DNA of 24,990 nt from a virus: the IMG/VR virus record IMGVR_UViG_3300007276_000280, positions 1 to 24,990 of that record; one strand, 5' to 3'. The translations under genes and the position numbers were made by a program. This document shows, piece by piece, positions 984 through 23,889 of this stretch. Below the pieces are notes generated by a model. It searched no databases, was not told where the DNA came from, and was given only the letters and a program-made list of their open reading frames with translations. How positions within the stretch are numbered: the first letter of the stretch is position 1; each line of letters starts with the position of its first letter.

Positions 984-996
984 TAATTAGACTATT

Positions 997-1037: not shown

Positions 1038-1055
1038 TGTAAACAATGAACAAAT

Positions 1056-1129: not shown

Positions 1130-1136
1130 AATTTAT

Positions 1137-1211: not shown

Positions 1212-1235
1212 ATATTTAATTATGAAGGATATAGA

Positions 1236-1769: not shown

Positions 1770-1787
1770 TGAGATATGATATATAAT
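1759..1787 (+). promoter_or_regulatory. TTGCCA-N17-TATAAT promoter for gp45
   Basis: TTGCCA (1759-1764), 17 bases, and a consensus TATAAT (1782-1787), with 25 bases from the -10 to the gp45 start. The -35 lies in the last codons of the peroxiredoxin gene. It is a member of the recurring promoter family of this window. Confidence 0.8.
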
Positions 1788-1812
1788 TAATTTTTTAAAG
1801 GAGAAATATATT

Positions 1813-2478: not shown

Positions 2479-2504
2479 ATTATGAAACAATTGAGGAGTA
2501 TATT

Positions 2505-3452
2505 ATGTCAGAAGAGTATTTGTGGGTCGAGAAATATCGGCCACGAAAAATTAAGGATTGTATCCTTACAGAAAGTCTAAAAGAAACATTTTCAGAGTTT
2601 CTTAAACAAGGCGAAATACCAAATCTGTTATTAAGTGGTTCTGCCGGTACAGGTAAGACTACTGTTGCTCGTGCTTTATGTGAAGAAATGGGTGCTGATT
2701 ATATCATCATCAATGGTTCAGATGAAGGCCGACAGATTGATACATTAAGGCACAAGATTAAAAACTTTGCCTCTACAGTATCATTAACAGAACAATCAAA
2801 CCATAAAGTGGTGATTGTAGATGAGGCAGACTATATGAATGCCGAGTCCGTTCAACCTGCCTTGCGTAACTTCATTGAAACATTTTACAAGAACTGTAGA
2901 TTTATATTTACTTGTAACTATAAGATGAAGATTATACCTGCTTTACATAGTCGTTGTACTGTTATTGATTTTGCAATTAAGAATGGTCAAAAGGTTAAAA
3001 CTGCCAAGGCATTTATGACTAGACTATCTGGTATTCTTAAAGATGAACAGATTAAGTTTGACCCAAAGGTTCTTGCAGAACTAATACAAAAACATTATCC
3101 AGACTTCCGTAGAACTATCAATGAACTTCAAAGATATTCTGTACGAGGTGAGATTGACACTGGTGTATTGTTTAATTTATCTGAAAGTAATACCAAAGAA
3201 CTTATGTCTAGTTTAAAAGACAAAAAGTTTAATGATATGCGAAAGTGGGTTATCAATAACTTAGATAAAGAACCATCATCTTTATTTTCTACAATCTATA
3301 ATAATCTATACGAGGCACTTGAAAAAAAATCAGTACCTCAAGCAGTATTAATTATTGCAGGTTATCAATACAAAGCAGCCTTTGTTGCTGACCAAGAAAT
3401 CAATATGGTTGCATGTCTTACCGAGATTATGGCAAACTGTAATTTTAAATAG
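2505..3452 (+). CDS. 44: clamp loader large subunit (T4 gp44 homologue)
   Basis: This is a 315-residue AAA+ ATPase (T4 gp44 has 319). With gp62 it opens the gp45 ring and loads it at primer-template junctions. Visible motifs are the N-terminal WVEKYRP box, Walker A GSAGTGKT (residues 45-52), Walker B VDEAD (105-109) and the SRC arginine-finger motif (149-151) used in trans between subunits. The start ATG 2505 follows TTGAGGAG. The gene sits 26 bases after gp45. It ends in TAG, which matters when judging the TAG inside gp41, because here TAG clearly works as a stop. A GIY-YIG-like gene follows before gp62, unlike T4, where 44 and 62 adjoin. Confidence 0.96.
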   Translation: MSEEYLWVEKYRPRKIKDCILTESLKETFSEFLKQGEIPNLLLSGSAGTGKTTVARALCEEMGADYIIINGSDEGRQIDTLRHKIKNFASTVSLTEQSNHKVVIVDEADYMNAESVQPALRNFIETFYKNCRFIFTCNYKMKIIPALHSRCTVIDFAIKNGQKVKTAKAFMTRLSGILKDEQIKFDPKVLAELIQKHYPDFRRTINELQRYSVRGEIDTGVLFNLSESNTKELMSSLKDKKFNDMRKWVINNLDKEPSSLFSTIYNNLYEALEKKSVPQAVLIIAGYQYKAAFVADQEINMVACLTEIMANCNFK

Positions 3453-4304: not shown

Positions 4305-4747
4305 GCGAAGAAATTATAAGTTGGTCGGCTAGTGATATGTTAGAGGTCACTATCTCACAACCAGATGATTTTTTAAAAATCAGAGAAACATTAACAAGGA
4401 TTGGTGTTGCTAGTCGTAAAGACAAAACATTATACCAATCATGCCATATTTTACACAAGCAAGGCAAGTATTACATTACACACTTCAAAGAGTTGTTTGC
4501 CTTAGATGGTAAAAAATCTACTTTAGTTGAAAACGATATTCAACGAAGAAACACTATTGCATTATTACTACAAGATTGGTCACTAGTTGCAATTGTTGAT
4601 ACTAAAAAAGTAGAAGAAAAAGCACCACTAAGCCAAATTAAAGTATTACCATTTAAAGAAAAGAATGAATGGAACTTGACTGCTAAATATAACATAGGCA
4701 AAAAGATTGAAGGAACTGATGGCGGAAATGTTAGTACCAAAGTTTAA
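4301..4747 (+). CDS. regA: RegA translational repressor
   Basis: RegA binds the start regions of early phage mRNAs and represses their translation, including its own. The block LEVTISQPDDFLKIRETLTR (residues 14-33) aligns with the T4 RegA N-terminus, and LYQSCHILHKQGKYYITHFK (43-62) and KNEWNLTAKYNIG near the C-terminus are the other hallmark blocks. Twelve residues precede the T4-like start. ATG 4301 was chosen because it overlaps the gp62 stop (ATGA) and has a GGGAG site, while the internal ATG 4337, which would give a T4-sized N-terminus, has none. At 148 residues it is longer than T4 RegA (122) because of this extension and a divergent tail beyond NIGKK. It overlaps the next gene by 29 bases. 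Confidence 0.93.
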   Translation: MSEEIISWSASDMLEVTISQPDDFLKIRETLTRIGVASRKDKTLYQSCHILHKQGKYYITHFKELFALDGKKSTLVENDIQRRNTIALLLQDWSLVAIVDTKKVEEKAPLSQIKVLPFKEKNEWNLTAKYNIGKKIEGTDGGNVSTKV

Positions 4748-6116
4748 AGATTTTTTATCAGAAGCAAAAAAAGAACAACCTTTTCTAAGATTACTCATCG
4801 TAACAGATGAACCTGAAGAGGCGAAGACTTTTCATACGGCTGATAGACTACAAGAGGAGTGTGATAAACTAAAATATCCACACTACTTGTTTAAACTTAC
4901 TGGTGGTTACACAACGCTAGAAGACGGTGTTCGTAGATTTCATAATCAAGACGATAAAAAAGGTTTTGAAATCGACAAGAGAACTGTTGCTATTATTCGT
5001 GGTAGTATTACCAGAAAAGATAGTTGGATGGACTTTGTTTCTATTTTAGAAAAAGAAGAAGTTTGTCTAGTTAATAATAGACAGTGTATTTCAATTTGTG
5101 CTGACAAGTATAGAACTTCATTAAGACTTGCAGATTATGGTTTAACAGAACCAAAAACCTTTTTAATAAACGACCCCGAAAAATCAGTAGAACAAGTAGA
5201 GAATGCTGGTCTTAAATTTCCTCTTATCTTAAAAACTTTAAGAGGTAGTAAAGGTGTCGGTGTATTGTTTGTTGAAAGTGCTAAGTCATTAGACAGTATT
5301 GTACAACTAATACACAAACAAGATGAAGACACAGATTTATTGGCACAACAATATATTAAAACAGACTATGATGTTAGAGTACATGTATTAGGTGGTAAAG
5401 TTATTGCAGCTATGAAACGACCAGTTATCGAAGGAGATTTCAGGTCAAATGTATCACAAGGTTCAGAACCAGAAAACATTGAACTAACAGAATTAGAAAT
5501 AGAAGAAAGTCTTAGAGCTGCTAAAGCAGTAAACGGGACATGGTCGGCAGTTGATTTTATACCTAGTAAGAATAGAGATAAAGAACCGCCATTTATGCTA
5601 GAGGTGAACTCATCACCTGGAACTGAGGGAATTGAAGATGCGAGTAATCAGAACATATCTCGTGAGGTTATCCAGCATTTTGCTGATAAAAGAAATAGAT
5701 ATACTACTCCAACGGAGTGTGGCTACAAAGAAGTGGTCACAATCAAACCTTTTGGAGAAATTGTTGCTAAGTTTGACACTGGTAATTCAGGCATGCCTGT
5801 CATACATAGTGATAAGTTTTCGGTATCTGGTAGACAAATTAGATGGTCTCTTCTCGGCAAAACAATAACTTCTGATATTGTTCGTAAAGAAGAAATCAAA
5901 GTTGGTGGCCTAAGAGATTATGATGAAGACCGATATGTCGTAAAACTAGATGTAGAATTCGCTGGTGGTTTTTACAAAGATGTAGAATTTACCATTGATG
6001 ATAGAGAAGATAGAACACCTATTCTTCTTGACCGTGCATTTATGAATACATTAAATGTCATGGTAAACCCACAAAGAAAATATGTAATAACAACGAAATA
6101 CAGCTTGCCAAATTAG
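4719..6116 (+). CDS. ATP-grasp ligase (RimK-like) fused to retropepsin/RimB-like domain
   Basis: A 465-residue fusion. Residues about 20-330 form a RimK-type ATP-grasp amino-acid ligase: a pre-ATP-grasp segment, ATP-binding ILKTLRGSKGVGV (Lys172), the RVHVLGGKVIAAMKR strand pair, and metal-binding FMLEVNSSPGTEG (Glu295, Asn297). Residues about 340-465 resemble PF05618 (RimB, formerly ATP-dependent zinc protease), an aspartic retropepsin fold. Asp353-Thr-Gly is the candidate catalytic triad, and DRTPILLDRAFM is the paired psi-loop-like segment. In bacteria RimK adds Glu to ribosomal protein S6, and RimB is encoded nearby. Here writer and presumed trimmer are one chain. The start is ATG 4719 with AAGGA four bases upstream; TTG 4707 is a weaker option. 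Near the N-terminus, KFKDFLSEA resembles a capsid-targeting peptide. The target in the phage or host is unknown. Confidence 0.85.
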   Translation: MAEMLVPKFKDFLSEAKKEQPFLRLLIVTDEPEEAKTFHTADRLQEECDKLKYPHYLFKLTGGYTTLEDGVRRFHNQDDKKGFEIDKRTVAIIRGSITRKDSWMDFVSILEKEEVCLVNNRQCISICADKYRTSLRLADYGLTEPKTFLINDPEKSVEQVENAGLKFPLILKTLRGSKGVGVLFVESAKSLDSIVQLIHKQDEDTDLLAQQYIKTDYDVRVHVLGGKVIAAMKRPVIEGDFRSNVSQGSEPENIELTELEIEESLRAAKAVNGTWSAVDFIPSKNRDKEPPFMLEVNSSPGTEGIEDASNQNISREVIQHFADKRNRYTTPTECGYKEVVTIKPFGEIVAKFDTGNSGMPVIHSDKFSVSGRQIRWSLLGKTITSDIVRKEEIKVGGLRDYDEDRYVVKLDVEFAGGFYKDVEFTIDDREDRTPILLDRAFMNTLNVMVNPQRKYVITTKYSLPN

Positions 6117-11562: not shown

Positions 11563-11845
11563 AAGATATGTCTTTGCTCAAAAAGAGGGCGAAGACCATA
11601 CTTGTATTAAGTTGACCGAAGGACCATTTGCTGATACCATTTACAAATATGGTAAGGTTGGCATACCACCAAAAGTGGAAGAAGATGCTGAGGGTAAATT
11701 ACCTTTGACATTTGATTATACAGTAGTAAAAAATCCAAGAGATTTAGACCTGCTTGATAATCAAGAATTTATAAATTATATAGGTGATATATTGGTAGAA
11801 TTACTTGATGAACAACTAAAGAATGGGACGGCAATAATTGAATAG
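11513..11845 (+). CDS. conserved phage protein of unknown function
   Basis: A 110-residue protein lies between uvsX and gp41, overlapping the first by 50 bases and the second by 8. The central segment [20 protein letters not shown] followed by [13 protein letters not shown] reads as a small beta domain; the C-terminal [21 protein letters not shown] is an amphipathic helix. I recall proteins of this kind at the same place in marine T4-like phages, without a known role. ATG 11513 is the best in-frame start, but it lies deep inside uvsX and has a poor ribosome site; translation may be coupled to uvsX. It is not T4 gene 40, which has this position in T4. Confidence 0.7.
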
Positions 11846-13025
11846 AATAGAAACCACAATACTGAGCAATCTCTTTTTCAGAGAAGATTACACTAGAAAA
11901 GTATTACCTTTTATTAAAAAGGATTACTTCAATACAAGAACTGAACAGTTACTATTTGAAGAAGTGTATAAGTTTATTGATAAGTACAATAATCTTCCTA
12001 CAAAAGAAACTATCTTAATTGAACTTAATACTCGTAAAGATATTAATGAAGAAGAACATACAGCAATAAAAGAATATGTTGTAGGTTTATCAGATGAGAA
12101 GAGTGATGAACAGTGGTTGATTGATACTACTGAAAAGTTTTGTAAAGACCGTGCTGTACATAATGCTGTATTGTCTGGTATTAAAATCTTGGATGGCAAA
12201 GACAAGGCGATGACGCCAGAGGCAATACCAAGTATCTTATCAGATGCATTGGCCGTGTCGTTTGACAATCATGTTGGCCATGACTATATTGAAGATGCAA
12301 AATCCAGATTTGATTGGTACCATACTAAAGAGAAAAGATTTCAATTCGACCTTGATTACATGAATAGAATTACAAAAGGTGGTGTTCCAAGTAAAACTTT
12401 GAACATTGCTCTTGCAGGCACAGGCGTTGGTAAATCACTATTCATGTGCCATGTAGCATCATCTTATTTGACACAAGGTATGAATGTATTGTATATCACA
12501 TTAGAGATGGCAGAGGAAAGAATTGCAGAAAGAATTGATGCAAACTTACTTGATGTATCTATGGAAGATTTACATGTCATGCCAAAAGATTTGTATGATA
12601 ACAAGATGGATAAGATACAAGCTAAGACAAAAGGTAAACTTATCATCAAAGAATATCCAACAGCTTCTGCTCATAGTGGTCACTTTAGAGCATTGTTGAA
12701 TGAGTTATCATTGAAGAAGAGTTTTAAACCAGATGCAATCTTTATTGACTATCTAAACATTTGTTCTTCAAGTAGATTTAAAGGTGGTAATATATCATCA
12801 TACTTTTATGTAAAAGCAATTGCAGAAGAACTTAGAGGTCTTGCTGTAGAGTTTGATGTACCAATCTTTAGTGCAACACAAACCACAAGAACTGGTTTTG
12901 TCAGTACAGATATTGGTCTTGAAGATACTTCAGAAAGTTTTGGTCTGCCTGCTACGGCAGACTTTATGTTCGCTTTGATTTCAAATGACGAACTAGAACA
13001 ACTAGGTCAAATTAAAATCAAATAG
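11838..13025 (+). CDS. 41: replicative helicase gp41 (DnaB family), main part, ended by in-frame TAG
   Basis: This is a 395-residue DnaB-type helicase that unwinds DNA 5'-3' at the fork and works with the primase. The N-terminal domain (about 1-150) is followed by the RecA-like core with Walker A AGTGVGKS (193-200), LYITLEMAEERIAERIDANL, Walker B AIFIDYLNIC, and VPIFSATQTTRTGF. The frame stops at TAG 13023-13025 after QIKIK, but the same frame continues LKNRYNDP through 60 more residues that are plainly gp41. In relatives the junction reads KQLKNRY, so TAG replaces a Gln codon. The lost part holds the conserved Lys-x-Arg that in DnaB supplies the arginine finger. The start is TTG 11838; upstream ATGs in frame are closed by stops. 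With the remainder the length is 456 residues, near T4's 475. Confidence 0.92.
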   Translation: MNRIETTILSNLFFREDYTRKVLPFIKKDYFNTRTEQLLFEEVYKFIDKYNNLPTKETILIELNTRKDINEEEHTAIKEYVVGLSDEKSDEQWLIDTTEKFCKDRAVHNAVLSGIKILDGKDKAMTPEAIPSILSDALAVSFDNHVGHDYIEDAKSRFDWYHTKEKRFQFDLDYMNRITKGGVPSKTLNIALAGTGVGKSLFMCHVASSYLTQGMNVLYITLEMAEERIAERIDANLLDVSMEDLHVMPKDLYDNKMDKIQAKTKGKLIIKEYPTASAHSGHFRALLNELSLKKSFKPDAIFIDYLNICSSSRFKGGNISSYFYVKAIAEELRGLAVEFDVPIFSATQTTRTGFVSTDIGLEDTSESFGLPATADFMFALISNDELEQLGQIKIK

Positions 13026-13208
13026 TTGAAAAACAGATATAATGACCCTAGTACAAACAGAGCATTCATTGTGGGTGTTGACCGTAGTAAAATGAGGTTG
13101 TATGATGTAGAACAAACAGCACAAGATATTGTTGACGCTAATCAAACTAATCAACCTTTTAAAAAGAAAGAGGACGCTTACGATAAGTTTAGCGATTTTA
13201 AAGTATAA
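13026..13208 (+). CDS. 41: gp41 C-terminal part, same frame after the TAG
   Basis: Sixty residues in the same frame follow the TAG directly. LKNRYNDP corresponds to the DnaB H4 motif (K-x-R-N/Y), and FIVGVDRSKMRLYDVE is the last strand region of T4-like gp41. Nothing suggests decay: there is no further stop, the codon style is the same, and the end is a normal TAA overlapping the next ATG. It could be reached by readthrough or by a suppressor tRNA, or be made separately from the TTG at 13026, which lacks a good ribosome site. A sequencing or assembly error is the dull alternative. The K-x-R pair here should be needed for ATP hydrolysis, so both parts must end up in one hexamer. Confidence 0.6.
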   Translation: MKNRYNDPSTNRAFIVGVDRSKMRLYDVEQTAQDIVDANQTNQPFKKKEDAYDKFSDFKV

Positions 13209-14016: not shown

Positions 14017-14046
14017 TTGCCATCTTTCCTAGGTGTGTTATAAATA
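14017..14046 (+). promoter_or_regulatory. composite promoter: TTGCCA plus late TATAAATA
   Basis: TTGCCA (14017-14022) is followed after 16 bases by TATAAATA (14039-14046), which is both an acceptable -10 and the exact T4 late consensus. The ATG at 14063 is 16 bases after it, with AGGAGA between. The gene downstream may be read in both middle and late phases. Confidence 0.65.
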
Positions 14047-14062
14047 TGTATAGGAGAGATAA

Positions 14063-15337
14063 ATGTTACTTACTAAAACACAGTATAAACTTGTAGAACA
14101 AGCAGCTGCCAAAGCTGGGGCTAAGATATCTTATGAAAAAAAGAAATCTACATTAAGTGCAGATGTGTTTTTTGCTAGAGCAGCTAGTAGACCTACTGCT
14201 AGAAAACATGTTGGTAATCATTTTAAAAAACTAAAACTACCTGTTACAGAAAAGAAAACATCTTTATCTAGTGAAGACATTACCGAAACAACTATTGACG
14301 GCAAAACAGTACGAATAGTTTACAAACCAATGTCTGGTGGTATGACAGAGACCACTTTAAACTCCACAATTACAGAACTTATACCTTGCCTTGCATTTTT
14401 AAATGGCATTACAGAAACAAATATAGATAAACTATATGAAAAAATTATAGGATTATCTAGTAAGTTACAACCACCTTATGTCACACAGAATGACTTAAAG
14501 GCTGGTTTAGATTTTATCGAACAAATGCCAGAGTCCTCTTTGTATAGTGTGAAGATGACTAACGCAATGGCGATTAGAAAATATTTAAAAGATACAAACA
14601 ATAATAAGAAAATAGATACGGTATATTGGACATATCGTGCAAAACCAGTAGGTGTTCCAGCTAATTCACCTGCTGATATTGTTATCTTCTTTAATGATGG
14701 TTCACTATTAGGTGTTTCATTAAAAGCTGGTGGTGAGTCCACAAAAGAACCATTGCTAAACACATATGTAAAACCAATCTATGAATTTTTTGATAGAGGT
14801 AATACCAAATCTATCAAACTAAGAAAGAAACTATTAAAAGAAGTTTACAATGAGATTGATATTACAGCATCTAACTATGATGAGGGTGCTGAAAGAAATA
14901 AAACACTAGATGTATTAGAACAATTTGAAAGAGATAATCTAAAAAAATATGAAGAACTATATGACAAAGGTCTATATTGTATTCGTGAAGAGCTTTCAGA
15001 TTTAATGGTACAAGATTACCATAAATTTTCAGATTGGTGTCGTGCTCAGATATTAAAACAATCAGATGTACCAGTTACTATTATCAAGGCAGTTAACGAC
15101 ACATACAGAGAAGTAAAGGATGGTAACAGATTGAATGCTTACCTATCAAAGGCAACTAGTGTAAAAGTAGAGATTTCCACCACCTCAAAACAGAACTTTT
15201 CATTCTGTTTATATCAAGGTAGTAAGAAAATTGCTACCATGAACATGGCTGTAAGGTCAAATAAGGTCGGTGTTCAACACAAACTAGGTCAATTCTTCAA
15301 CCTGGCCGTAAAATATAATGGACTAAACGACCATTAA
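14063..15337 (+). CDS. unknown protein with possible PD-(D/E)XK nuclease core
   Basis: A 424-residue protein of unclassified function. About residues 185-225 read TVYWTYRAKPVG, then ADIVIFFNDGSLLGVSLKAGG. Asp205 on a strand, a hairpin and then S-x-K (219-221) resemble the D...(E/Q/S)xK active site of the PD-(D/E)XK nuclease fold. The N-terminal 70 residues are Lys/Ala-rich with AAAKAGAKISYEKKK; a helical middle section (300-360) follows, and the last 60 residues form beta strands (VKVEISTTSKQNFSFCLYQG). The AGGAGA site supports ATG 14063. The promoter is of late type, so a packaging, head or superinfection role is as plausible as DNA metabolism. The nuclease idea is inference from one motif. 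Confidence 0.7.
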   Translation: MLLTKTQYKLVEQAAAKAGAKISYEKKKSTLSADVFFARAASRPTARKHVGNHFKKLKLPVTEKKTSLSSEDITETTIDGKTVRIVYKPMSGGMTETTLNSTITELIPCLAFLNGITETNIDKLYEKIIGLSSKLQPPYVTQNDLKAGLDFIEQMPESSLYSVKMTNAMAIRKYLKDTNNNKKIDTVYWTYRAKPVGVPANSPADIVIFFNDGSLLGVSLKAGGESTKEPLLNTYVKPIYEFFDRGNTKSIKLRKKLLKEVYNEIDITASNYDEGAERNKTLDVLEQFERDNLKKYEELYDKGLYCIREELSDLMVQDYHKFSDWCRAQILKQSDVPVTIIKAVNDTYREVKDGNRLNAYLSKATSVKVEISTTSKQNFSFCLYQGSKKIATMNMAVRSNKVGVQHKLGQFFNLAVKYNGLNDH

Positions 15338-15366
15338 CTTATAAATAGTAGTGGATTTGTTAATGG
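15331..15366 (+). repeat. 8-bp inverted repeat around a late promoter
   Basis: CCATTAAC (15331-15338) and GTTAATGG (15359-15366) are perfect inverted copies separated by 20 bases. The first overlaps the stop region of the 14063 gene, and the spacer contains TATAAATA. It may be a protein-binding site or a weak hairpin; there is no T-run. Confidence 0.5.
15340..15347 (+). promoter_or_regulatory. T4-type late promoter of the late cassette
   Basis: Exact TATAAATA in the context CTTATAAATAGTA, 84 bases before the ligase-like gene. It should drive the long overlapping run of genes up to 23331 late in infection, in parallel with the sigma-70-type promoter at 15382. Confidence 0.7.
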
Positions 15367-15431: not shown

Positions 15432-16649
15432 ATGTTTAGTTTTAAAGGGTTTCAAACACAAGATACGAATACACACCTAGAACATCTGGAAGATGATATC
15501 ATCAACCGTGGTTCAAAGGGTGGCGATAATGCGTTAAACTTCCTAATGACTGTAAGAGATATGCTTGCTGGTTCTGCCAGAAGTAAGGTCAATATTACGG
15601 TTAAATGGGACGGTGCGCCTGCTATTATCTGTGGTATCAATCCAGAAAACGGCAAATTCTTTGTCGGCACAAAATCAGTATTCAATAAAACACCTAAGAT
15701 AAACTATACCAATAGAGATATTGATAGTAACCATGGTGGTGTTGTTGCACAAAAATTAAAAGTATGTCTTGCTTATCTATCTAAATTAAACATCAAAGGC
15801 ATCTTACAAGGTGACCTATTGTTCACAGGTGATGACAAAAAGAATGTCACTATAGACGGTGAACCAATGATTTCTTTTACACCAAATACAATCACATATG
15901 CTATGCCAAAAAATAGTGCAGTTGGTAAAAAGATTGCAGCTGCCAAAATGGGTATCGTGTTTCATACACAATACAATGGTAAAACTATGGCAAGTTTAGC
16001 TGCTAGTTTTGGTTCAGTAACAGGTTCTACAAATAAAAATATATGGTTGGCAAGTGCAAAGTACCAAGACACTTCAGGTTCTTCAACATTCACTCAAGCA
16101 GAGTTAGCTAAGTTTGATGCACAACTTAGAATGGCACAAGGTTCATTATCAAAAGCAAAACCAATTTTAGATTTGATGAGTGGTAATATCAACGATGAAC
16201 TATCTGTAGGTTACAGATTAAAAACATACTTTAACTCATACATTAGAAATTCAAATTCAAGCATGGCTAAAGTTAAAATCATGCAAGCACAGTTTAGAGA
16301 TTACTTCCAGAATTACTTACAACAAGAAATTGATAGTAAGAAAACAGAACGAGGAAAAGAAAAATACAAAGTTGCTTTGAAAAAAGGTTTACAAATTATT
16401 GACCGAAATCAATCAGCATTATACTTTGCTATTTCCTCACACATTACATTAGGTATTGCAAAAGGTACTTTACTACAGAAGATGAACCAGATTAAGTCTA
16501 TTGGTCACTTCTTACGAACAAAAACTGGTTACAGAGTAACGGCACCAGAGGGTTATGTTGCAATCAACAGTACAGCAGGTGCAGTTAAATTTGTAGATAG
16601 ATTAGAATTTAGTAGGCAAAACTTTACTATGCCAAAGGGTTGGAATTAA
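15432..16649 (+). CDS. ligase-like nucleotidyltransferase (KxDG motif)
   Basis: This 405-residue protein carries the motif order of covalent nucleotidyltransferases (DNA/RNA ligases and capping enzymes). Motif I is VKWDGAPAI with candidate nucleotidyl-lysine Lys58; GKFFVGTKSVFNK follows (74-86); LQGDLLFTG (125-133) resembles motif III, and MGIVFHTQYNG (173-183) motif IV. A clear motif V is not seen; the C-terminal 200 residues are helical. I recall the family as a conserved marine-phage protein (perhaps DUF6267, unverified), often opening with a peptide followed by NTHxEHxED, seen here as NTHLEHLEDD. The start MFSFKGF is a weak version of the capsid-targeting peptide on the next genes. It overlaps adenylate kinase by one base. 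An activity as ligase is inferred, and the substrate is unknown. Confidence 0.75.
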   Translation: MFSFKGFQTQDTNTHLEHLEDDIINRGSKGGDNALNFLMTVRDMLAGSARSKVNITVKWDGAPAIICGINPENGKFFVGTKSVFNKTPKINYTNRDIDSNHGGVVAQKLKVCLAYLSKLNIKGILQGDLLFTGDDKKNVTIDGEPMISFTPNTITYAMPKNSAVGKKIAAAKMGIVFHTQYNGKTMASLAASFGSVTGSTNKNIWLASAKYQDTSGSSTFTQAELAKFDAQLRMAQGSLSKAKPILDLMSGNINDELSVGYRLKTYFNSYIRNSNSSMAKVKIMQAQFRDYFQNYLQQEIDSKKTERGKEKYKVALKKGLQIIDRNQSALYFAISSHITLGIAKGTLLQKMNQIKSIGHFLRTKTGYRVTAPEGYVAINSTAGAVKFVDRLEFSRQNFTMPKGWN

Positions 16650-17227
16650 TGAAGACATTTAAACACTTCTATTTTGAGGCAATAAACGGACCTAAAATCA
16701 TTATGATAGGTGGACCTGGTTCAGGTAAGTCAACATACTCAGAAATTATTACTAAAGAGTTAGGTATTCCACATATCTACACAGGTGAAATGTTAAGAGC
16801 AATCTCAAAACAAAACACCGAAGATGGTAAAGAAGTAAAAAGATTATTAGACCAAGGTAAATTTGCACCAACACCTTTGACAATTAAGATAGTAAAACAA
16901 AGATTAGAAAAACCAGATGCACAAAAAGGTTATATCTTTGATGGTTTTCCTAGAAGTGTTGAACAAGCAAAGATGATGGAAGAACAAGGTATTGAGTATG
17001 ACTATGTAATAAATCTTGTTATACCAGAAGAAGAAATTATAAAAAGATTGACAGCAAGAGGTAGAGAAGACGACAAACCAGATATTATTAAAAAGAGATT
17101 GGCGACTTACGAAAAAGAAACTAGACCTTTATTGCAGTATTATAAGAAAGAAATAATAAATATTAAAGCATATGGTGATACGCCTGAAAGTATTGCTAAA
17201 GAAATAATAAACAAGGTAAAGAAATGA
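16649..17227 (+). CDS. adk: adenylate kinase with capsid-targeting-like N-terminus
   Basis: A 192-residue nucleoside-monophosphate kinase (AMP + ATP to 2 ADP). P-loop GGPGSGKS (21-28), NMP-binding TGEMLR (45-50), DGFPRS (98-103), and the short-type lid RLTARGREDDKPDIIKKRL with its arginines are all present. It is somewhat shorter than bacterial Adk. Fused before the kinase fold is an extra MKTFKHFYFEA, close to the T4 capsid-targeting sequence MKTYQEFIAEA, whose E-A bond is the type cut by the prohead protease gp21. ATG 16649 shares a base with the preceding TAA; the upstream in-frame TTG is less likely. It overlaps the next gene by ATGA. Packaging into the head is inferred. Confidence 0.93.
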   Translation: MKTFKHFYFEAINGPKIIMIGGPGSGKSTYSEIITKELGIPHIYTGEMLRAISKQNTEDGKEVKRLLDQGKFAPTPLTIKIVKQRLEKPDAQKGYIFDGFPRSVEQAKMMEEQGIEYDYVINLVIPEEEIIKRLTARGREDDKPDIIKKRLATYEKETRPLLQYYKKEIINIKAYGDTPESIAKEIINKVKK

Positions 17228-17919
17228 AGACATTTGACCAGATAAGATATCAAGACTTAACAGAGGGTGTTTATGATAAGAACATCTTTAAGGCTTTCTT
17301 TTTAGCTGGTGGTCCAGGTTCTGGTAAATCATTTGTAACAGGTAGTGCATTTGCTGGTTCAGGTTTAAAAGTTATAAATTCAGATAATGCATTTGAAAGA
17401 GGTATTAAAAAGGCAGGTCTGTCATTGAAAATGCCTGATAGTGAAGCAGATGCTAGAGATATGGTTCGTGCCAGAGCAAAGGCAACAACTAGTAATATGT
17501 TAGACTTAGCATTAGCGGGTCGTTTAGGTTTAGTAGTTGATGGTACTGGTAGAGATTTCGATAAGATTTCATATCAAGTAAGAGCATTGAAAGAATTAGG
17601 TTACGATGCACATATGATATTTGTTAACACATCTTTAGATGTTGCATTGCAAAGAAATCAAATGAGAAGTAGAACAATACCAGAATATATTGTAACTAGA
17701 AGTTGGAATGATGTACAATCAAATATTGGTAAGTTTCAAAACCTATTTGGTCCTAGTAACATGGTAATTATTGATAACAATATATCAGATAAAGAATTAA
17801 CAACACAAACAATGACCAAAGTAAGTAAAGCAGTTAACAAAATGCTTAACAATCCAATCAAATCTTATACAGCTAAAAGATGGATTGCTACTGAACTAAG
17901 GAACAAGAGAAGAAAATGA
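17224..17919 (+). CDS. P-loop kinase, zeta-toxin-like
   Basis: This 231-residue protein has Walker A GGPGSGKS (29-36), a following VINSDNAFE segment, and VVDGTGRDFDKISYQVRAL, a pattern of zeta-toxin/AAA_33-type kinases, some of which phosphorylate nucleotide-sugars and others nucleic-acid ends. ALQRNQMRSRTIPEYIVTRSW supplies the lid-like arginines. The substrate cannot be read from the sequence; a polynucleotide 5'-kinase role would suit the ligase-like neighbour. The N-terminus MKTFDQIRYQDLTEG lies before the fold and resembles a capsid-targeting peptide with an L-T-E cleavage-like site. Both ends overlap neighbours by ATGA. It is not accompanied by an epsilon antitoxin. Confidence 0.85.
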   Translation: MKTFDQIRYQDLTEGVYDKNIFKAFFLAGGPGSGKSFVTGSAFAGSGLKVINSDNAFERGIKKAGLSLKMPDSEADARDMVRARAKATTSNMLDLALAGRLGLVVDGTGRDFDKISYQVRALKELGYDAHMIFVNTSLDVALQRNQMRSRTIPEYIVTRSWNDVQSNIGKFQNLFGPSNMVIIDNNISDKELTTQTMTKVSKAVNKMLNNPIKSYTAKRWIATELRNKRRK

Positions 17920-20300
17920 AAAAGTTTAGAGAAGTCATAGAAAGTATTATTGATATACCAAGACGGACATATGCACCGGCTGTATTCAATGATGCAGATA
18001 CCAATGACCCTAAAATTAAACCAAGTGTTAAGGCACAGATAGAGAAACAGTTAAAGGTATTTGAGAGTGAATATCCTGTACTACAGTATTCTTTAATTGG
18101 TTCTATTTTAACTAAACGATATAGAAATGATGCAGATTTAGATATCAATGTATTGTTTGATGTACCATTAGGTCAAAGAGAAGACGAAAGAGTTAGACTT
18201 TCTAAGAAGTATTTGTCTGCCTCAAATCCTGATAACATTCAAGGTAAAGTAATACCTGGTACAGAACATCCAATTAACTATTATTTTATTACAGACAAAG
18301 CAACTTACGATGACCAAAACAGAAAGGCAGATGCCGTTTTTGATATTGAAAGAGATGTGTTTGTAAAAAGACCAGAAGATTTTGTATTTGATGTTGACAT
18401 GTACATTGGTCAGTTTACTAGAAAAGTCCAAGAACTTGATGTAGTTAAAGGTGAATTAACAAGAGATATCATTGACTACAATGAATTAAAAGATTTATCA
18501 TCAAACGATGTTCTAAACTTACAAGATAAAATTAAAGATAAGTTAGAAGAAATCGAAGATGACTTACGAGTTATCATTAGAATTGGTGACGGTGTTGATG
18601 CAGAAAGAAGAAAAGCATTTGACACAGATATGGCACCAGATGAAATTAGAGATTACGGTGTTAAGAATAGACTACCAAAAAATGTTATCTATAAGATGTT
18701 AGAGAAATATCACTATCTAAAATTCTACAAGAAGTGTAAAAAGATTTTAGAAGATGGTATTGTAACTGATAAAGAAGTACAAGATTTAGAGATGCATGAG
18801 GCAACTAAGAAGTCCGTTGCGTTTGCATTTGGTCGTTTTAATCCGCCTACAATTGGTCACGAAAAACTTATTAGTAAAGTCAAGTCGCAACCTACAAATG
18901 ATTACAAAATCTATTTAAGTAGAAGTGAGGATCCTAAAAAGAATCCACTATCTCCTAAAGATAAGTTAACGATTATGAAGAAGTTATTTCCTAGTCATGC
19001 TAGAAATATTCAAATTAATCCTACTAATATGGTACTTGACCTTGCAACTGACCTACACAATAAAGGTTATACAGATGTAACTATGGTTGCAGGTTCAGAT
19101 AGAGTAAGAGAATTCGATACTATTTTAAAGAAATACAATGGTGTAAAATCAAGACATGGTCTATATGATTTTCAAAGTATTAAAGTTGTATCTGCCGGTG
19201 AAAGGGACCCCGATGCTGAGGGTGCCACAGGTATGAGTGCTTCTAAGATGAGAGCTGCAGCTGCCAAAGGTGACCTTGCAAGTTTCAAAAAAGGTTTACC
19301 AGGAAATGCAGATGCAACAACTATTATGAAACAAGTAAGAAGAGGTATGAAACTAGCTGCCTCATTCGGTGGTGCAGCCGCACATATCGGTCTTGCTCAG
19401 AAACCAATTGCTAGTTTAAATGAATTCGAACAACAACAAATTAGAGACCTTTATATCAGAGAACAGATATTTAATATCGGCGATACTGTAAAGTATATCA
19501 AAGAAAATATTGAAGGTAAGATTGTAAGAAAAGGTACTAATTATATTGTTGTAGAAGATAACAAAAACAATTTGCATAAAGCGTGGATTTGGGATTGCAT
19601 TCCAGAAGCCAGCGATAGGGAGGCACAAGTGAGAGAATATAACTTAGATGTTGACTATGGTTTTGAAGCAGTATCAGATGTACAAGAAGATATGGATGCT
19701 CAACCACAGGATAGAGATGTCAAAAAGAAAAAAGGTACACAACCTAAAAAGTATTACAAAGACTTAAAGAAAGATACTAAAGACAAAAGAGCAGACCACT
19801 TTAAGAATAAAGATACTACAAAGAACGATAATAAACCAGCACCAGGCGATAAAGATGCTAAGACTAAACCAAGTATTCATACAACAAAGTATAAGAAAAT
19901 GTTTGGTGAATTTAAGAGAGATTTACAAGATGCTTGTTGGGTAGGTTATAAAAAAGTAGGCATGAAGAAAAAAGGTGATAAGATGGTACCAAATTGTGTA
20001 CCTGAAGAGATGAGTATAGAAGATGCACAAAAAGTAGAGGGTTTTGTACCTGAGTCCTATGAAATTGGGCATGATTATGCTAATCATACAAAAGAAATGA
20101 CACCAGGTGAAACGCCAGATGTAGCACCAGTAGATGCTAAATTAAGAGGCACACCTAACGACCCTAAATCTATTGGCAAAAAAGATATAAAAGAATGGGC
20201 TTCTTCAGCTGAAACAATTGATAAATATAGGGAACGATACAAAGAGGAATGGCGAACTAGATTAGAGGATGTCGTTTCTAAGATGATAGAGAAACTATAA
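17916..20300 (+). CDS. double nucleotidyltransferase: Pol-beta-like plus NMNAT-like, with phage modules
   Basis: A 794-residue mosaic. Residues about 45-170 form a Pol-beta/MNT-type nucleotidyltransferase: Gly62-Ser63, then Asp74-Leu-Asp76 (DADLDINV), the two metal carboxylates. Residues about 298-480 form a HIGH-superfamily cytidylyl/NMN-adenylyltransferase: GRFNPPTIGH (306-315) and GMSASKMR (439-446), the ISATxxR-like motif. About 517-567 is a small beta module (NIGDTVKYIKENIEGKIVRK then NYIVVED and WIWDC). A Lys-rich linker leads to the marine-phage motif CWVGYKKVGMKKK...MVPNCVPE (674-697) and an acidic tail. It starts MKKFREVIES, like its neighbours' targeting peptides. NAD synthesis, RNA-end chemistry or coenzyme capping are possible; none is proven. 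Both ends overlap neighbours. Confidence 0.85.
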   Translation: MKKFREVIESIIDIPRRTYAPAVFNDADTNDPKIKPSVKAQIEKQLKVFESEYPVLQYSLIGSILTKRYRNDADLDINVLFDVPLGQREDERVRLSKKYLSASNPDNIQGKVIPGTEHPINYYFITDKATYDDQNRKADAVFDIERDVFVKRPEDFVFDVDMYIGQFTRKVQELDVVKGELTRDIIDYNELKDLSSNDVLNLQDKIKDKLEEIEDDLRVIIRIGDGVDAERRKAFDTDMAPDEIRDYGVKNRLPKNVIYKMLEKYHYLKFYKKCKKILEDGIVTDKEVQDLEMHEATKKSVAFAFGRFNPPTIGHEKLISKVKSQPTNDYKIYLSRSEDPKKNPLSPKDKLTIMKKLFPSHARNIQINPTNMVLDLATDLHNKGYTDVTMVAGSDRVREFDTILKKYNGVKSRHGLYDFQSIKVVSAGERDPDAEGATGMSASKMRAAAAKGDLASFKKGLPGNADATTIMKQVRRGMKLAASFGGAAAHIGLAQKPIASLNEFEQQQIRDLYIREQIFNIGDTVKYIKENIEGKIVRKGTNYIVVEDNKNNLHKAWIWDCIPEASDREAQVREYNLDVDYGFEAVSDVQEDMDAQPQDRDVKKKKGTQPKKYYKDLKKDTKDKRADHFKNKDTTKNDNKPAPGDKDAKTKPSIHTTKYKKMFGEFKRDLQDACWVGYKKVGMKKKGDKMVPNCVPEEMSIEDAQKVEGFVPESYEIGHDYANHTKEMTPGETPDVAPVDAKLRGTPNDPKSIGKKDIKEWASSAETIDKYRERYKEEWRTRLEDVVSKMIEKL

Positions 20301-20647
20301 TGAAAACATTTAAAGAATTCGAAAATATTGATGAAGCATGTGAAGAGTGTATCTTTGAGCACGAGCTTGAGGGTTTACAAGAGGCTGAGTATCAAGGTAA
20401 GAAAGTTAAATTAAACGACCCGATTAGAGGTGGCAGTAAGAAGTTTTATGTTTATGTTAAGAATGACCAAGGCAATATTGTTAAAGTGTCATTCGGCGAT
20501 ACAACTGGATTAAGTATTAAGAGAGATAACCCAGCTCGAAGAAAGTCTTTTAGAGCTAGGCATAATTGTGATAATCCAGGTCCTAAATGGAAAGCTAGAT
20601 ACTGGTCGTGTTATCAATGGAGAGCGGGAGCAAAGGTAGACAACTAA
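20300..20647 (+). CDS. small conserved marine-phage domain protein
   Basis: A 115-residue protein. The N-terminus MKTFKEFENIDEA is again a capsid-targeting-like peptide, followed by an acidic, Cys-containing stretch (CEECIFEHELEGLQEAE). The rest is one conserved block: YQGKKVKLNDPIRGGSKKFY, VKVSFGDTTGLSIKRDNPAR, then RKSFRARHNCDNPG and KARYWSCYQW. I recall this block from many marine phage proteins (possibly DUF6321, unverified). Cys and His residues near the end might bind a metal. The start shares a base with the preceding TAA. The function is unknown; after removal of the N-terminal part a basic domain of about 85 residues would remain, a size like T4 internal proteins. Confidence 0.82.
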   Translation: MKTFKEFENIDEACEECIFEHELEGLQEAEYQGKKVKLNDPIRGGSKKFYVYVKNDQGNIVKVSFGDTTGLSIKRDNPARRKSFRARHNCDNPGPKWKARYWSCYQWRAGAKVDN

Positions 20648-20648
20648 A

Positions 20649-22373
20649 ATGAGCAGATATAGACAAACATTCACAGAGGCGATGCAACAAGTAGCGCTGA
20701 CTGAAAAAGAAGTAAGCAAATTAAAAAACGGTGTTAAGGTATTAGGTAACGCTTTACCAAACAGAGCATTGGCACAGAAAATGGCCGACAAGGCTAATAA
20801 AGAAATGGGCAAAGATGCAGATGTATACCAATCTCCGTTTAATAACAGATTTTATGTAAGAATTAAAGAGGCTGCCGACCATGAGATTTCAATGGCTCGT
20901 GGAGAACTAGAAGCTATATCTGATAAAGCATTAAAGTTATCTTCTATCTTACAAGGTAAAACAGATGATGCACAACTAGAAGCATGGGTGCAATCTAAGA
21001 TTACAAAAGCAAAAGACTATATCAATTCAGTTTCAGATTACATGGAGTACAATCCAGATAATGCAAATGAAGAACTAGAAGAAAGTTTTTCAGATAGTCA
21101 AATTAAACAGTTACAGAAACAATACGAACCTTTAAGAGGTAAGAAGATTTCTATTGACAATGCAAACAAATTAGGTGCAATGTTTACCAAGTTTGATAAA
21201 GACAAGAACGCATTAGAAAAATTATATGGTGGTGATATACCATTTGTATCAGTAATGGCCATGACTAGACTTATGACCAAACATAATTACAAAGCTGCTG
21301 ACTTAAATAAACTTGGTAAGATTAGAATGGAAGAAATCGAAATCTTAGACGAGGCTACACAAGAGTTAGTAGATGTTACTGAGGGTAAGATTGACGCAAA
21401 GAAATTTGATAGTTTGAAGAGAGGTGATACAATGAATATCACTTACAACTCAACTATGGGTGGTAAATCTACACAAAAATTTGTTGTAAAGAGTAAGAGT
21501 AGAAGTGCTAAGTACAACACAGACAAAGTAACAATGTATCCTGATGGCAAACCAAATATGTCAAGATACTTCTTATACAAAAGAGCAAACGGTGATGTAT
21601 CAATGGCAACAGGTGATATGGCCGCTTCAATTATGTCTGTAGAAGGATTTACAGAGAGTGTTGAGTATGTAGAATACATGGCAAAGAATTCAGGTGAAGC
21701 AGGTAGAATTGCTAATATGTTTAAAGGTAAAACAGGTGGTGGAGAAATTCATAAATCTGGTTCAGAAGTTAGAATTGATAGTGCCAAAAACATTGAGAGT
21801 ATTCACAAGCAAGTAGTTGCAAAGTTTCCAGACACAAATGTAATGACAGTTGAAGATGCTGATTTAGAAGAAGGTATGATGAGTAAGATTGATGCCATGC
21901 AAAAAGATGGTAAGTCAGCGGCTGATATTGCAAAAGAATTAAAATTAAAAGTATCTGTAGTAAAAGGTATCTTAGGTGAAGAACTAGATGAAATGAAAAA
22001 AGATGATGCATACGCAATTGGTATGGCACAAGCAAAGAAATCTATGAACGATGAACCACCTTTAGATAAAAAGACTATAGAAAAAGGACATGAGATTGCT
22101 AAAAAGGTAATGAAGAACGAAGACCATCCAGCAAAAGAGATGTATGAACAAATCAAAGGTCTAAAAAACAAAGCTGAAAAATCAGGAATGCCTTACGGTA
22201 TTTTAAAGAAGGTTTACGATAGAGGAATGGCCGCATGGAGAGGTGGACACCGACCAGGTGCTTCACAGCAACAATGGGCATTTGCTAGAGTAAATTCATT
22301 CGTAACAAAATCCTCTGGAACATGGGGTGGAGCTGACAAAGACTTAGCTGCCAAAGTTAAAGGGAGTAAATAA
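20649..22373 (+). CDS. mosaic late protein with HTH-like segment and DUF5824-type C-terminus
   Basis: A 574-residue, highly charged modular protein. The N-terminus MSRYRQTFTEAM resembles the targeting peptides nearby, and VALTEKE gives another L-x-E site. Recognisable modules include a segment near 255-330 (GDTMNITYNSTMGGKSTQKF to DVSMATGDMAASI), a helix-turn-helix-like stretch near 410-447 (KDGKSAADIAKELKLKVSVV), a segment with DDAYAIGMAQAKKSM, and at the end GMPYGILKKVYDRGMAAWRG followed by HRPGASQQQWAFARVNSF, which I associate with DUF5824. All are modules recurring in marine phages. An internal-head or injected protein is the best inference; no enzyme motif is seen. ATG 20649 follows the previous stop by one base. 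Confidence 0.8.
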   Translation: MSRYRQTFTEAMQQVALTEKEVSKLKNGVKVLGNALPNRALAQKMADKANKEMGKDADVYQSPFNNRFYVRIKEAADHEISMARGELEAISDKALKLSSILQGKTDDAQLEAWVQSKITKAKDYINSVSDYMEYNPDNANEELEESFSDSQIKQLQKQYEPLRGKKISIDNANKLGAMFTKFDKDKNALEKLYGGDIPFVSVMAMTRLMTKHNYKAADLNKLGKIRMEEIEILDEATQELVDVTEGKIDAKKFDSLKRGDTMNITYNSTMGGKSTQKFVVKSKSRSAKYNTDKVTMYPDGKPNMSRYFLYKRANGDVSMATGDMAASIMSVEGFTESVEYVEYMAKNSGEAGRIANMFKGKTGGGEIHKSGSEVRIDSAKNIESIHKQVVAKFPDTNVMTVEDADLEEGMMSKIDAMQKDGKSAADIAKELKLKVSVVKGILGEELDEMKKDDAYAIGMAQAKKSMNDEPPLDKKTIEKGHEIAKKVMKNEDHPAKEMYEQIKGLKNKAEKSGMPYGILKKVYDRGMAAWRGGHRPGASQQQWAFARVNSFVTKSSGTWGGADKDLAAKVKGSK

Positions 22374-22374
22374 C

Positions 22375-23331
22375 ATGAAAAATAACTTTGATAAAAAGCC
22401 CGGCAGTATAGAAGATGTAGTTGCCGGCATGACTAACCATACTAGAGAGAATGCTTATCAAGATAAATTCAAAAAAGAATTAGAAAAGACAGGCAAAGGC
22501 ATTGGTGCAATGACACCAAAAGAAAAGTCTGCTTTCTTTAGTAAGATTGATAAAGAATACAAAGCAAAGAATGAAGAAATAACTGAAGAAACAATTGTAG
22601 AATTTTCTTCACAACAAATTAAACAAGCATATGGTATTGCAAATGACCCTAGATACAAACAAGGTAACTATTCAGGTGCAGTAAAAGCTATTGAGAAACT
22701 TGCAAAAGGTTTATCACAACATCCAGATGTACAAAAGGTTTTGAAAAGAACTAACGAAGATTTAGAAGAAGAAAAAGTAGAATGTCCTCAGTGTAAAGGT
22801 AAAGGGTGTGACCATTGCGATGGCAAAGGGTATCACATGGAAAGCCATATGGGACAAACTAAGAAAGCAAATCAATCTCAGAAAGATGCCAAAGGTGAAA
22901 AAGAAATCATCAAAACTGTTTCAGAAACCGTATTAGATATGTGGAAAGAAGCAGCTGGCGAAAAGAAAGAGAAAGAAGTTGAAGAAGAAGAGGTTAAAAA
23001 AGAAGAACCTAAGAAAGACGAAGACGCTGCTAAAAAAGAATTAGAAAAAAAAAGCGATGAAGTCACACTTCTAAAACAAAAGGTTGACTTAGAGAAAGCT
23101 AAGGCTGTTCAAAAGGACACACAGAAGATGGTTAATCCTGAAACTGGTGAACCTCTTTTACAGGTAGGTATTGCATACAAAGCTCTTAGAGATAAGATGA
23201 AAAAAGAAGAAATTGAACCTACTAAAGAGAAAAAGGTCAGTGAAACTGAATTAAAGAACAAAAAGCGAACAGATACAGAAGAAAAACCAAGTGAAATCGA
23301 AGTAAATCCAACAATTAAATACAATAAATAA
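22375..23331 (+). CDS. charged protein with a single zinc-knuckle, likely head-internal or scaffold-like
   Basis: A 318-residue protein dominated by Lys and Glu. About residues 75-127 hold a recurring marine-phage module (EFSSQQIKQAYGIANDPRYK and VQKVLKRTNED). CPQCKGKGCDHCDGKG (137-152) gives C-x2-C-x4-C-x2-C, equal to about half of the DnaJ zinc-finger region, enough for one zinc. Residues 180-310 are coiled-coil-like and extremely charged (KEVEEEEVKKEEPKKDEDAA), with TVLDMWKEAA before them. The composition recalls scaffold or internal head proteins, but no homologue in T4 can be named. The start has AAAGGGAG and lies one base after the previous stop. It lacks the targeting-like N-terminus of the five genes before it. 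Confidence 0.78.
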   Translation: MKNNFDKKPGSIEDVVAGMTNHTRENAYQDKFKKELEKTGKGIGAMTPKEKSAFFSKIDKEYKAKNEEITEETIVEFSSQQIKQAYGIANDPRYKQGNYSGAVKAIEKLAKGLSQHPDVQKVLKRTNEDLEEEKVECPQCKGKGCDHCDGKGYHMESHMGQTKKANQSQKDAKGEKEIIKTVSETVLDMWKEAAGEKKEKEVEEEEVKKEEPKKDEDAAKKELEKKSDEVTLLKQKVDLEKAKAVQKDTQKMVNPETGEPLLQVGIAYKALRDKMKKEEIEPTKEKKVSETELKNKKRTDTEEKPSEIEVNPTIKYNK

Positions 23332-23400: not shown

Positions 23401-23889
23401 ATGAAAAATTTACCTAGAATATATTTAGATATGGATGGTGTTCTTTTCGATTTTGTTAAGAATATTGAGAAGACTACTGGTCTTACAATCAATCAATGGA
23501 CTAAACTTGGTAGAAAAGAGCGTTGGGATCCAATCATCGCAAACAAAAAGTTTTGGTCTGACGGACCTTGGTTGAATGAGGGTAAGAAATTATTTACCTT
23601 TGTAAAGAAATACAATCCTCACATACTAAGTGCTTATGTAGAACATGCTCACGACCCTAATTGCATTCCAGGCAAGAAGAAGTGGGCTATGAAGAACACT
23701 GGCATACCTGCCAATAAAATCAATCTTGTGATGAGAAGTCAAAAAAAGAACTATGCAAGTCCTGGTTCTATACTGATTGATGATTACGAAAAGAATACTG
23801 CTGAATTCAATAGAGCAGGTGGTACAGGTATCACATTCAAAACTGCCTCACAGACAATCTCTGAACTCAAAAAACTTGGTTTCAAGTAA
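23401..23889 (+). CDS. HAD-family 5'(3')-deoxyribonucleotidase-like phosphatase
   Basis: A 162-residue HAD hydrolase. Motif I is YLDMDGVLFDF with nucleophile Asp10 and acid/base Asp12. Motif II is probably Ser77 in HILSAYV, motif III lysines are in GKKKWAMKN (about 91-99), and motif IV is LIDDYEKN with Asp127 and Asp128. The compact size and the WDPIIANKKFW cap fit the NT5C/deoxyribonucleotidase group, which removes phosphate from dNMPs and could balance phage nucleotide pools, opposite in direction to the adenylate kinase upstream. It stands alone with its own promoter between the late cassette and the structural genes, and ATG 23401 has AAAGGA upstream. Confidence 0.88.
   Translation: MKNLPRIYLDMDGVLFDFVKNIEKTTGLTINQWTKLGRKERWDPIIANKKFWSDGPWLNEGKKLFTFVKKYNPHILSAYVEHAHDPNCIPGKKKWAMKNTGIPANKINLVMRSQKKNYASPGSILIDDYEKNTAEFNRAGGTGITFKTASQTISELKKLGFK

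Follow-up and report, generated by a model that had tools for sequence, protein, structure and literature searches.

The window analysed here is a 24,990-base fragment of the DNA of a marine T4-like virus (IMG/VR record IMGVR_UViG_3300007276_000280, positions 1 to 24,990). Five adjacent proteins encoded from 16649 to 22373, together with a RimK-like ATP-grasp protein encoded at 4728, begin with a leader of about 9–28 residues in which aromatic or hydrophobic residues stand three apart and are followed by a hydrophobic-x-Glu-small site. These leaders are very probably capsid-targeting sequences (CTS) of the phage T4 type, and the enzymes that bear them probably travel in the particle and enter the host along with the DNA. 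The five leaders of the run lie where a preliminary description of this DNA had placed them, and likeness to the T4 leader is commoner than in shuffled N-termini; several of their sites are conserved in homologues. The CTS interpretation offered there is supported by the decisive positions of the leader, the form of its protease site, its portability between proteins, the recognition of T4 internal proteins by a profile of marine sequences and the virion proteomes of relatives.

Likeness of the leaders to those of T4 internal proteins

The T4 leaders, read from NC_000866, are MKTYQEFIAEA in ipII and ipIII and MKTFKEFTSTTTPVSTITEA in ipI. The adenylate kinase (ADK) encoded at 16649 starts with MKTFKHFYFEA, which had been described as matching the T4 leader nearly residue for residue in spacing. 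The spacing is indeed kept, and 5 of the 11 positions differ from ipII/ipIII, one of them being a Y/F exchange. The start of the 20300 product, MKTFKEF, is identical to the first seven residues of T4 IPI. According to a T4 review, mutagenesis of the IPIII CTS showed that targeting depends mainly on residues 4 and 7, and processing on residues 8 and 10 (PMC9026906). Aromatic residues occupy positions 4 and 7 exactly in 16649 and 20300 and are shifted by 2 in 4728; the pattern is approximate in 17224 (F4, I7), 17916 (F4, V7) and 20649 (Y4, T7, F8). The hydrophobic-x-Glu sites are YFE/A in 16649, LTE/G in 17224, VIE/S in 17916, LQE/A in 20300, FTE/A in 20649 and LSE/A in 4728. The T4 cut site uses L or I, and Y and F are looser matches.

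N-termini of 445 annotated genes (28 of the window, 196 of phage HTVC008M and 221 of phage Melnitz-2) were scored against the T4 leader with BLOSUM62. A score of at least 16 was reached by 17 genes, compared to 1.5 predicted from shuffled N-termini, and the ADK of the window was the top scorer. Within the window, scores were higher in the six genes from 15432 to 20649 than in the remaining 22 (p = 0.0023, one-sided Mann-Whitney test). A strict motif with the exact T4 spacing, F-x-x-F-hydrophobic-x-E close to the start, was found in 6 of the 445 genes (1.58 expected), two of which, 16649 and 4728, belong to the window. A loose motif that combines F/Y/W/L-x-x-hydrophobic with hydrophobic-x-E within 32 residues is uninformative alone, being present in 101 of 417 HTVC008M and Melnitz-2 genes.

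Finally, 118 diverse IMG/VR N-termini, with neither T4 nor phage S-CREM2 among them, served to build a marine profile of 10 columns by expectation-maximisation. The profile was applied to 1,326 T4 ATG codons, each followed by at least 50 open codons, and ranked ipIII and ipII 5th and 6th, and ipI 25th. The profile recovers the T4 internal proteins, and the marine signal is therefore of the internal-protein type.

The two best profile matches in T4 (NC_000866, 19130 on the minus strand and 114210 on the plus strand) are gene 61.1 and an in-frame Met near the end of uvsW. Gene 61.1 (MKTFKEFIKED), the top match, adjoins the anti-toxin gene 61.2 (PMC9391042), and the available part of a T4 review does not list it among the internal proteins; the uvsW in-frame start reads MLLEFKQFLYEAS. 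The product of gene 61.1 or of the uvsW-internal Met may be an unrecognised packaged protein.

Conservation and portability

Relatives were fetched from IMG/VR: the best 80 of 597 for 20300, 51 of 51 for 17224, 30 of 30 for 16649 and the best 80 of 120 for the RimK-like protein. Homologue starts were assigned from the start codon, ribosome-binding-like bases and nearness to the end of the upstream gene. N-termini were kept only when the match reached the N-terminus and contained no X, and identical proteins were counted once, which reduced the alignments from 53 to 25 rows for ADK, from 96 to 68 for the zeta-like kinase (17224) and from 118 to 69 for phrog_7595 (20300).

In the ADK homologues, F4, F/Y7, F/I/Y/V8 and E10 are each present in 25 of 25 rows, while residues 3 and 6 vary. 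The zeta-like kinases carry [LI]-x-E-G ahead of the fold in 67 of 68 rows, the remaining one having a gap, and the x varies strongly. In the phrog_7595 family, residues 26–29 contain Glu in 65 of 69 rows, I/L/V two positions before it in 67 and A/S next to it in all 69, and this site sits immediately ahead of the conserved domain. The AlphaFold model of the 20300 product has a helix at residues 4–16 (mean pLDDT about 77), strands from residue 27 and a separate domain behind. Both conserved sites have the form of a predicted site for gp21, the T4-type prohead protease. A search for the leader elsewhere in the window, suggested in the preliminary description, added the RimK-like protein, which had not been listed. 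Its leader MLVPKFKDFLSEA (ATG at 4728, codons 4728–4766) has a predicted cut after Glu12 and is, by sequence, the clearest and most conserved putative CTS of the window: each of the 39 distinct starts obtained from its best 80 relatives has F-x-x-[FY]-[IL]-x-E. The Melnitz-2 RimK start reads MTQKFSQFITEEP.

The leader is found in front of unlike proteins. Homologues of the 17916 product, which combines NTP_transf_2 and CTP_transf_like domains, start with MRFKDFINES, MKQFKDYILES or MISSFKSYLVEE, and the leader also stands on relatives that match the CTP-transferase half only (MISSFKSYLVEE, MIKNFSQYLIEE). In one relative the start MRFKDFIDIDN, with no clear cut site, precedes a PAP2 domain. For the 20649 product, short relatives that match the DUF5824 part only begin with MKSFNNFIKEDA, MITFKTFISESG and MISFKKYLDEK. 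The MSRYR start is shared by 22 long DUF5824 homologues of 463–1203 residues, and in 13 of these the match to 20649 begins only at residue 141 or later. A Pfam scan of six homologues of 20649 revealed no enzyme in their variable middles: DUF5824 was matched in five, with an additional weak HTH-type match below cut-off in three of the five, and one had no match. Leader-bearing homologues of the DUF6267 protein encoded at 15432 start with MINFSKYITED, MQTFKTYIVEA and MNDFQEYITEQ. HTVC008M, Melnitz-2, C48C1 and the cyanomyovirus records that were opened carry the family label Kyanoviridae; outside this family, the 17224 homologue of Aeromonas phage 65 (Straboviridae) starts with MKKFSEFIKLEE and the DUF6267 protein of Stenotrophomonas phage DLP_6 with MMKFTQFLAES.

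Leader residues shared with non-phage homologues had been named beforehand as an argument against the CTS interpretation, and for ADK no such sharing is seen. For most of the solved adenylate kinases listed, the alignment starts at their residue 2 or 3 and at residue 16 or 17 of the phage ADK, so that the ADK leader is an addition. A codon comparison of 41 ADK homologues, with near-identical ones kept in, gave 0.283 amino-acid differences per codon pair in the leader, 0.304 in the first part of the enzyme and 0.442 in the linker, which is supportive, not decisive.

In Agrobacterium phage Atu_ph07, positions 757–3093 encode a 778-residue protein in which the 17224 homologue begins at about residue 250, with VTE-G at the junction. 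By sequence, the arrangement is as in a polyprotein to be cut.

Virion proteomes of relatives

The virion lists come from papers available in part, and the statements below hold for those parts. Mass spectrometry of S-CREM2 virions lists 52 proteins (PMC10665884). We read 218 of the 219 coding sequences, leaving out the structural gp85. The strict motif occurs in 6 of the 218, compared to 1.07 expected from shuffles, and five of the six carriers were detected in virions: a SAM hydrolase, an APH/ChoK-like kinase, a cytidylyltransferase, gp13 and gp136; gp175 was undetected. The motif is thus present in 5 of 28 detected non-structural or hypothetical proteins compared to 1 of 167 undetected ones (Fisher p = 2.4e-4), and in 5 of 51 when all detected proteins read are counted (p = 0.003). 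Plain similarity to the T4 leader gives 5 of 28 and 3 of 167 at score 14.

The S-SZBM1 list holds 30 virion proteins (PMC9146016). Our scan covered 159 minus-strand genes (1–161 except 73 and 74); two more genes, on the plus strand, were inspected by eye. The strict motif was found in 1 of the 159, a cytidylyltransferase starting with MRFRQFIIEA, which is the only enzyme among the 30 listed proteins. Its leaderless DUF6267 neighbour is not on the list.

Related enzymes recur in other virions. T4-GC190 (citidylyltransferase) was found in virions of S-SM1 (PMC3037559), and its N-terminus reads MKKFSAFLNEAERSF, MKKFSAFLNEA. NMNAT is reported in S-SCSM1 virions (PMC9602691), and no such enzyme is named among the 14 virion proteins of S-CREM1 (PMC9964418). 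A kinase is mentioned in S-CRM01 virions (PMC10665884); this is presumably g130, which lies between DUF6267 and cytidyltransferase genes and starts with MISFDQFLSEK.

By eye, the detected S-CREM2 protein gp12, annotated as Cas9, shows FASFMAEAA near residue 20, and the detected gp155 shows FEEL...LREG. Moreover, gp12 and S-CRM01 g128 have a common N-terminus (RW..WS.G) followed by the leader-like FASFMAEAA and LDSFIKEAA, respectively, at about residues 17–27.

Points against the interpretation and alternative explanations

Several observations weigh against reading the leaders as CTS. Packaging in this virus is what we infer from sequence and from relatives. A gp21-type prohead protease, which had also been suggested as a search target, and a gp22-type core protein were not recognised among the genes of the fragment, which stops short; prohead protease, core and major capsid proteins are annotated in HTVC008M and Melnitz-2. 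The strict spacing is present in only 2 of the 28 window genes, and four of the six leaders (17224, 17916, 20300 and 20649) are variants that depart from exact T4 spacing by another residue at position 7 or a later cut site. The weak leader form that had been suggested for 15432 is there in degenerate shape, and the Glu, and with it the hydrophobic-x-Glu site, is absent. The five cyanophage DUF6267 homologues read (S-SM1, S-PM2, S-SZBM1, S-CAM9 and S-CRM01) all lack the leader, and in HTVC008M the starts of the 15432, 17224 and 17916 orthologues are shortened or lack the site. In T4 itself, Alt, gp67, gp68, gp21 and gp22 score poorly in the marine profile (ranks 327–542 of 1,326).

The proteome comparison has its own weaknesses. 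The strict motif was defined after the S-CREM2 N-termini had been seen. At the most favourable of five thresholds, the blind marine profile gives 5 of 28 and 2 of 167 (p 7e-4 to 9e-3), and its five include gp160 at an off-register place. Taken together, the 28 detected non-structural or hypothetical S-CREM2 proteins, most of which are leaderless, do not exceed the undetected ones in leader score (Mann-Whitney p = 0.48). For S-SZBM1, 20 of the 30 detected proteins fall in genes 162 and up, outside the scan, and the leaderless neighbours 136 and 139 are on the virion list. The profile gives the S-SZBM1 cytidylyltransferase a score of -1.0 and ranks the leaderless DUF6267 protein first; it has therefore partly learned domain residues. 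Because it missed this enzyme, our confidence in the CTS interpretation was lowered slightly, and it remains high.

The detected enzymes might also be abundant lysate proteins that co-purified with cyanophage virions, the motif enrichment being coincidental. The S-CREM2 authors allow for co-purification, and the cytidylyltransferase peptides are few, 3 in S-CREM2 and 2 in S-SZBM1 (PMC10665884, PMC9146016). The listing of S-SZBM1 136 and 139 further means that neighbourhood alone is not decisive there. Nevertheless, cytidylyltransferase/NMNAT-like proteins recur in the virion proteomes of several phages, and in S-SZBM1 the enzyme with the leader is listed but its leaderless DUF6267 neighbour is not; we consider this explanation improbable. 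Somewhat less remote, though still unlikely, is a role in building the head, in which the proteins would be taken into the prohead as scaffold or assembly factors without being meant for the next host. Head assembly is affected by IPIII in T4 (PMC9026906), and the 20649 product is long and has no assigned function; however, enzyme families account for three of the five products, and a scaffold would need no enzyme activity.

We consider each of two further explanations very unlikely. In one, the leader is a feature of translation, with A/T-rich early codons (ATGAAAAC...) favouring initiation and the peptide having no targeting role. The MKT and MKK starts are rich in A, and neighbouring genes in the run overlap or touch, but neither the fixed aromatics three apart nor the [LI]-x-E-small site with its free middle residue would be explained, and most RimK leaders start with MQV, not MK, and yet hold F-x-x-[FY]-[IL]-x-E. 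The tie to virion proteomes would likewise be left unexplained. In the other, the leader is a general virion tag leading to the tail or baseplate instead of the head interior. The published proteomes, in the parts available, were obtained from whole virions and give no location for the proteins; the fit, however, is to a T4 head-interior signal and a head protease site, and a marine-trained profile finds the T4 internal proteins. Targeting to the head by a CTS remains the preferred interpretation.

Proposed mechanism and comparison with known systems

In the mechanism that we propose, the leader would form a short amphipathic helix that binds a prohead scaffold core of the gp22 type, so that the core-bound enzyme is trapped inside the prohead. 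A gp21-type prohead protease would then cut after the Glu and free the enzyme. The mature ADK, zeta-like kinase, double nucleotidyltransferase, phrog_7595, DUF5824 and RimK-like proteins would be injected with the DNA and act ahead of phage transcription. Judging from their families, the adenylate kinase would rebalance adenine nucleotides and the zeta-like kinase would phosphorylate a nucleotide or some small molecule. Possible substrates of the double nucleotidyltransferase are NAD precursors as well as the ends of nucleic acids or small molecules, and a ribosomal protein may be what the RimK-like protein modifies.

The leaders resemble those of T4 IPI, IPII and IPIII in position and usual length (10–19 residues in T4, by the available sources), in the aromatics at 4 and 7, in the hydrophobic-x-Glu cut site and in the unlike cargo behind a common leader. 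Unlike the small basic internal proteins of T4, the cargo of the window consists largely of enzymes (kinases, nucleotidyltransferases and a RimK-like ligase); several tagged genes stand in one operon, and one propeptide reaches 28 residues. The ADP-ribosyltransferase Alt of T4 is, as described in the text available, a head-carried enzyme acting at once in the host, but its own start fails the marine profile (rank 471 of 1,326). Relatives or analogues of the cargo occur in purified virions of the cyanophages S-CREM2, S-SZBM1, S-SCSM1 and S-SM1 as cytidylyltransferase/NMNAT-like proteins, an APH/ChoK-like kinase and a SAM hydrolase, with the leader in the three phages whose N-termini were read (S-CREM2, S-SZBM1 and S-SM1). 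In their available parts, these papers propose that the enzymes enter with the virion and name no targeting peptide. The ejection proteins of the giant phage SPN3US are similarly packaged and cleaved by a prohead protease in the head; SPN3US belongs to another phage group, and the likeness is by description only, from a source available in part.

CTS biology is already known, and its use on marine-phage enzymes may be new. Judged by title and abstract opening, none of the papers listed in searches on phage capsid targeting describes it on such enzymes, subscription journals being mostly outside the coverage. A survey of pelagimyophages counts adk as an auxiliary metabolic gene in the text available (PMC7029224). 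The leader would give a sequence rule for which phage enzymes travel in the particle, and a reason why NMNAT-like proteins and kinases recur in cyanophage virion proteomes. Pelagiphage-type adk and RimK-like genes, so far regarded as metabolic genes that are expressed in infection, would instead probably encode injected effectors. We give an even chance to a wider proposal, that in marine T4-like phages the internal-protein signal of T4 has become a general code for the delivery of enzymes. Under this proposal adk, NMNAT/cytidylyltransferase-like, RimK-like, kinase, SAM hydrolase and Cas9-annotated proteins would travel in virions and remodel the chemistry of nucleotides, NAD and ribosomes within the first seconds, and injected proteins of uncultured viruses could be predicted from the leader.

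Genomic context and neighbouring genes

The first half of the window holds T4-type replication genes, identified by BLASTP against annotated HTVC008M and Melnitz-2 genes, and the leader operon, from 15432 onward, comes after them (Table 1). The adjacent reading frames 11838–13025 and 13026–13208 both match the single gp41-like helicase of HTVC008M and of Melnitz-2; the helicase gene is thus split by a stop codon in the window. In a search of named phages, the 15432, 17224 and 20300 products were nearest to Pelagibacter phage HTVC008M (51, 56 and 70%) and the 17916 product to Methylophilales phage Melnitz (41%). The ADK has no match in HTVC008M or Melnitz, its best matches being in other phage records (up to 46%).

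Table 1. Positions of genes and promoter-like sequences in the window.
Feature	Position	Strand	Remarks
Sliding clamp match	1813		BLASTP against HTVC008M/Melnitz-2
Clamp loader match	2505		BLASTP against HTVC008M/Melnitz-2
Clamp loader subunit match	3909		BLASTP against HTVC008M/Melnitz-2
RegA match	4301		BLASTP against HTVC008M/Melnitz-2
RimK-like ATP-grasp protein	4728..6116	+	Pfam RimK 6.2e-36 (read from 4722); outside the span first described
DNA polymerase match	6814		BLASTP against HTVC008M/Melnitz-2
UvsX/RecA match	10534		BLASTP against HTVC008M/Melnitz-2
Primase-helicase match	11838		BLASTP against HTVC008M/Melnitz-2
T4-late-promoter-like TATAAATA	14039..14046	+	24 bases upstream of 14063
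phrog_2496 protein	14063..15337	+	possible weak leader MLLTKTQYKLVEQ
T4-late-promoter-like TATAAATA	15340..15347	+	92 bases upstream of 15432, ahead of operon
DUF6267 protein	15432..16649	+	Pfam 2.4e-122; degenerate leader MFSFKGFQTQ without Glu
Adenylate kinase	16649..17227	+	Pfam ADK 1.4e-46; putative leader MKTFKHFYFE/A, codons 16649–16681
Zeta-toxin/AAA_33-like kinase	17224..17919	+	Pfam Zeta_toxin 1.7e-11, above cut-off; putative 14-residue leader ending DLTE/G
NTP_transf_2 + CTP_transf_like protein	17916..20300	+	Pfam; putative leader MKKFREVIE/S
phrog_7595 protein	20300..20647	+	putative leader MKTFKEF; conserved site LQE/A at residues 26–29, ahead of conserved domain
Long protein, C-terminal DUF5824	20649..22373	+	Pfam 1.9e-17; putative leader MSRYRQTFTE/A, kept in homologues with unlike bodies
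Next gene of run	22375..23331	+	no leader; own motif M..L..KPGS[IL]E
5'-nucleotidase-like gene	23401..23889		leaderless in the window

The gene overlaps noted in the preliminary description are confirmed, the run from 15432 to 20649 being nearly gap-free. The end of 15432 and the start of 16649 share one base, the overlap with the preceding gene is 4 bases for 17224 and for 17916 and 1 base for 20300, and a 1-base gap precedes 20649. The late promoter claimed there is weak as a statistical signal: copies of TATAAATA do precede 14063 and 15432, but the window contains 6 copies compared to 3.8 expected, and 14 of 100 shuffles reach 6. The enzymatic nature of the cargo (adenylate kinase, zeta-like kinase, double nucleotidyltransferase) is borne out by Pfam domain matches, and the ADK has its P-loop (GGPGSGKST). 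No solved relative of the 17224 product was found by sequence, and we call it only zeta-like, without assigning a substrate. The RimK-like product has a weak C-terminal match to PF05618 (zinc protease-like).

At the place of gene 14063, Melnitz-2 and HTVC008M have genes that start with MQGFKTFLSEAK and MLSFTGYSNLSEAR, respectively, in a clearer leader form, and their identity to 14063 is only 12–19%. A PD-(D/E)XK nuclease assignment for 14063 found no support, the best weak fold matches being nucleotidyltransferases (E from 0.018). Fold searches of the 14063 model (pLDDT 82.5, pTM 0.57) and of the 20300 model (pLDDT 79.4, pTM 0.72) gave no PDB match at E 0.001 or better.

Downstream of the run, the 5'-nucleotidase-like protein carries an N-terminal extension in HTVC008M (MKYSAFKAETLNLHLVQE) and others; by sequence, this is a putative leader gained or lost on the same enzyme. 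In HTVC008M, three more small genes after the operon, at 16283, 17674 and 18048, start with MKSFKDF, MRTYRAF and MKTFTDF, and the start of the 17674 product, read over its first 45 residues, is very basic, as in T4 internal proteins.

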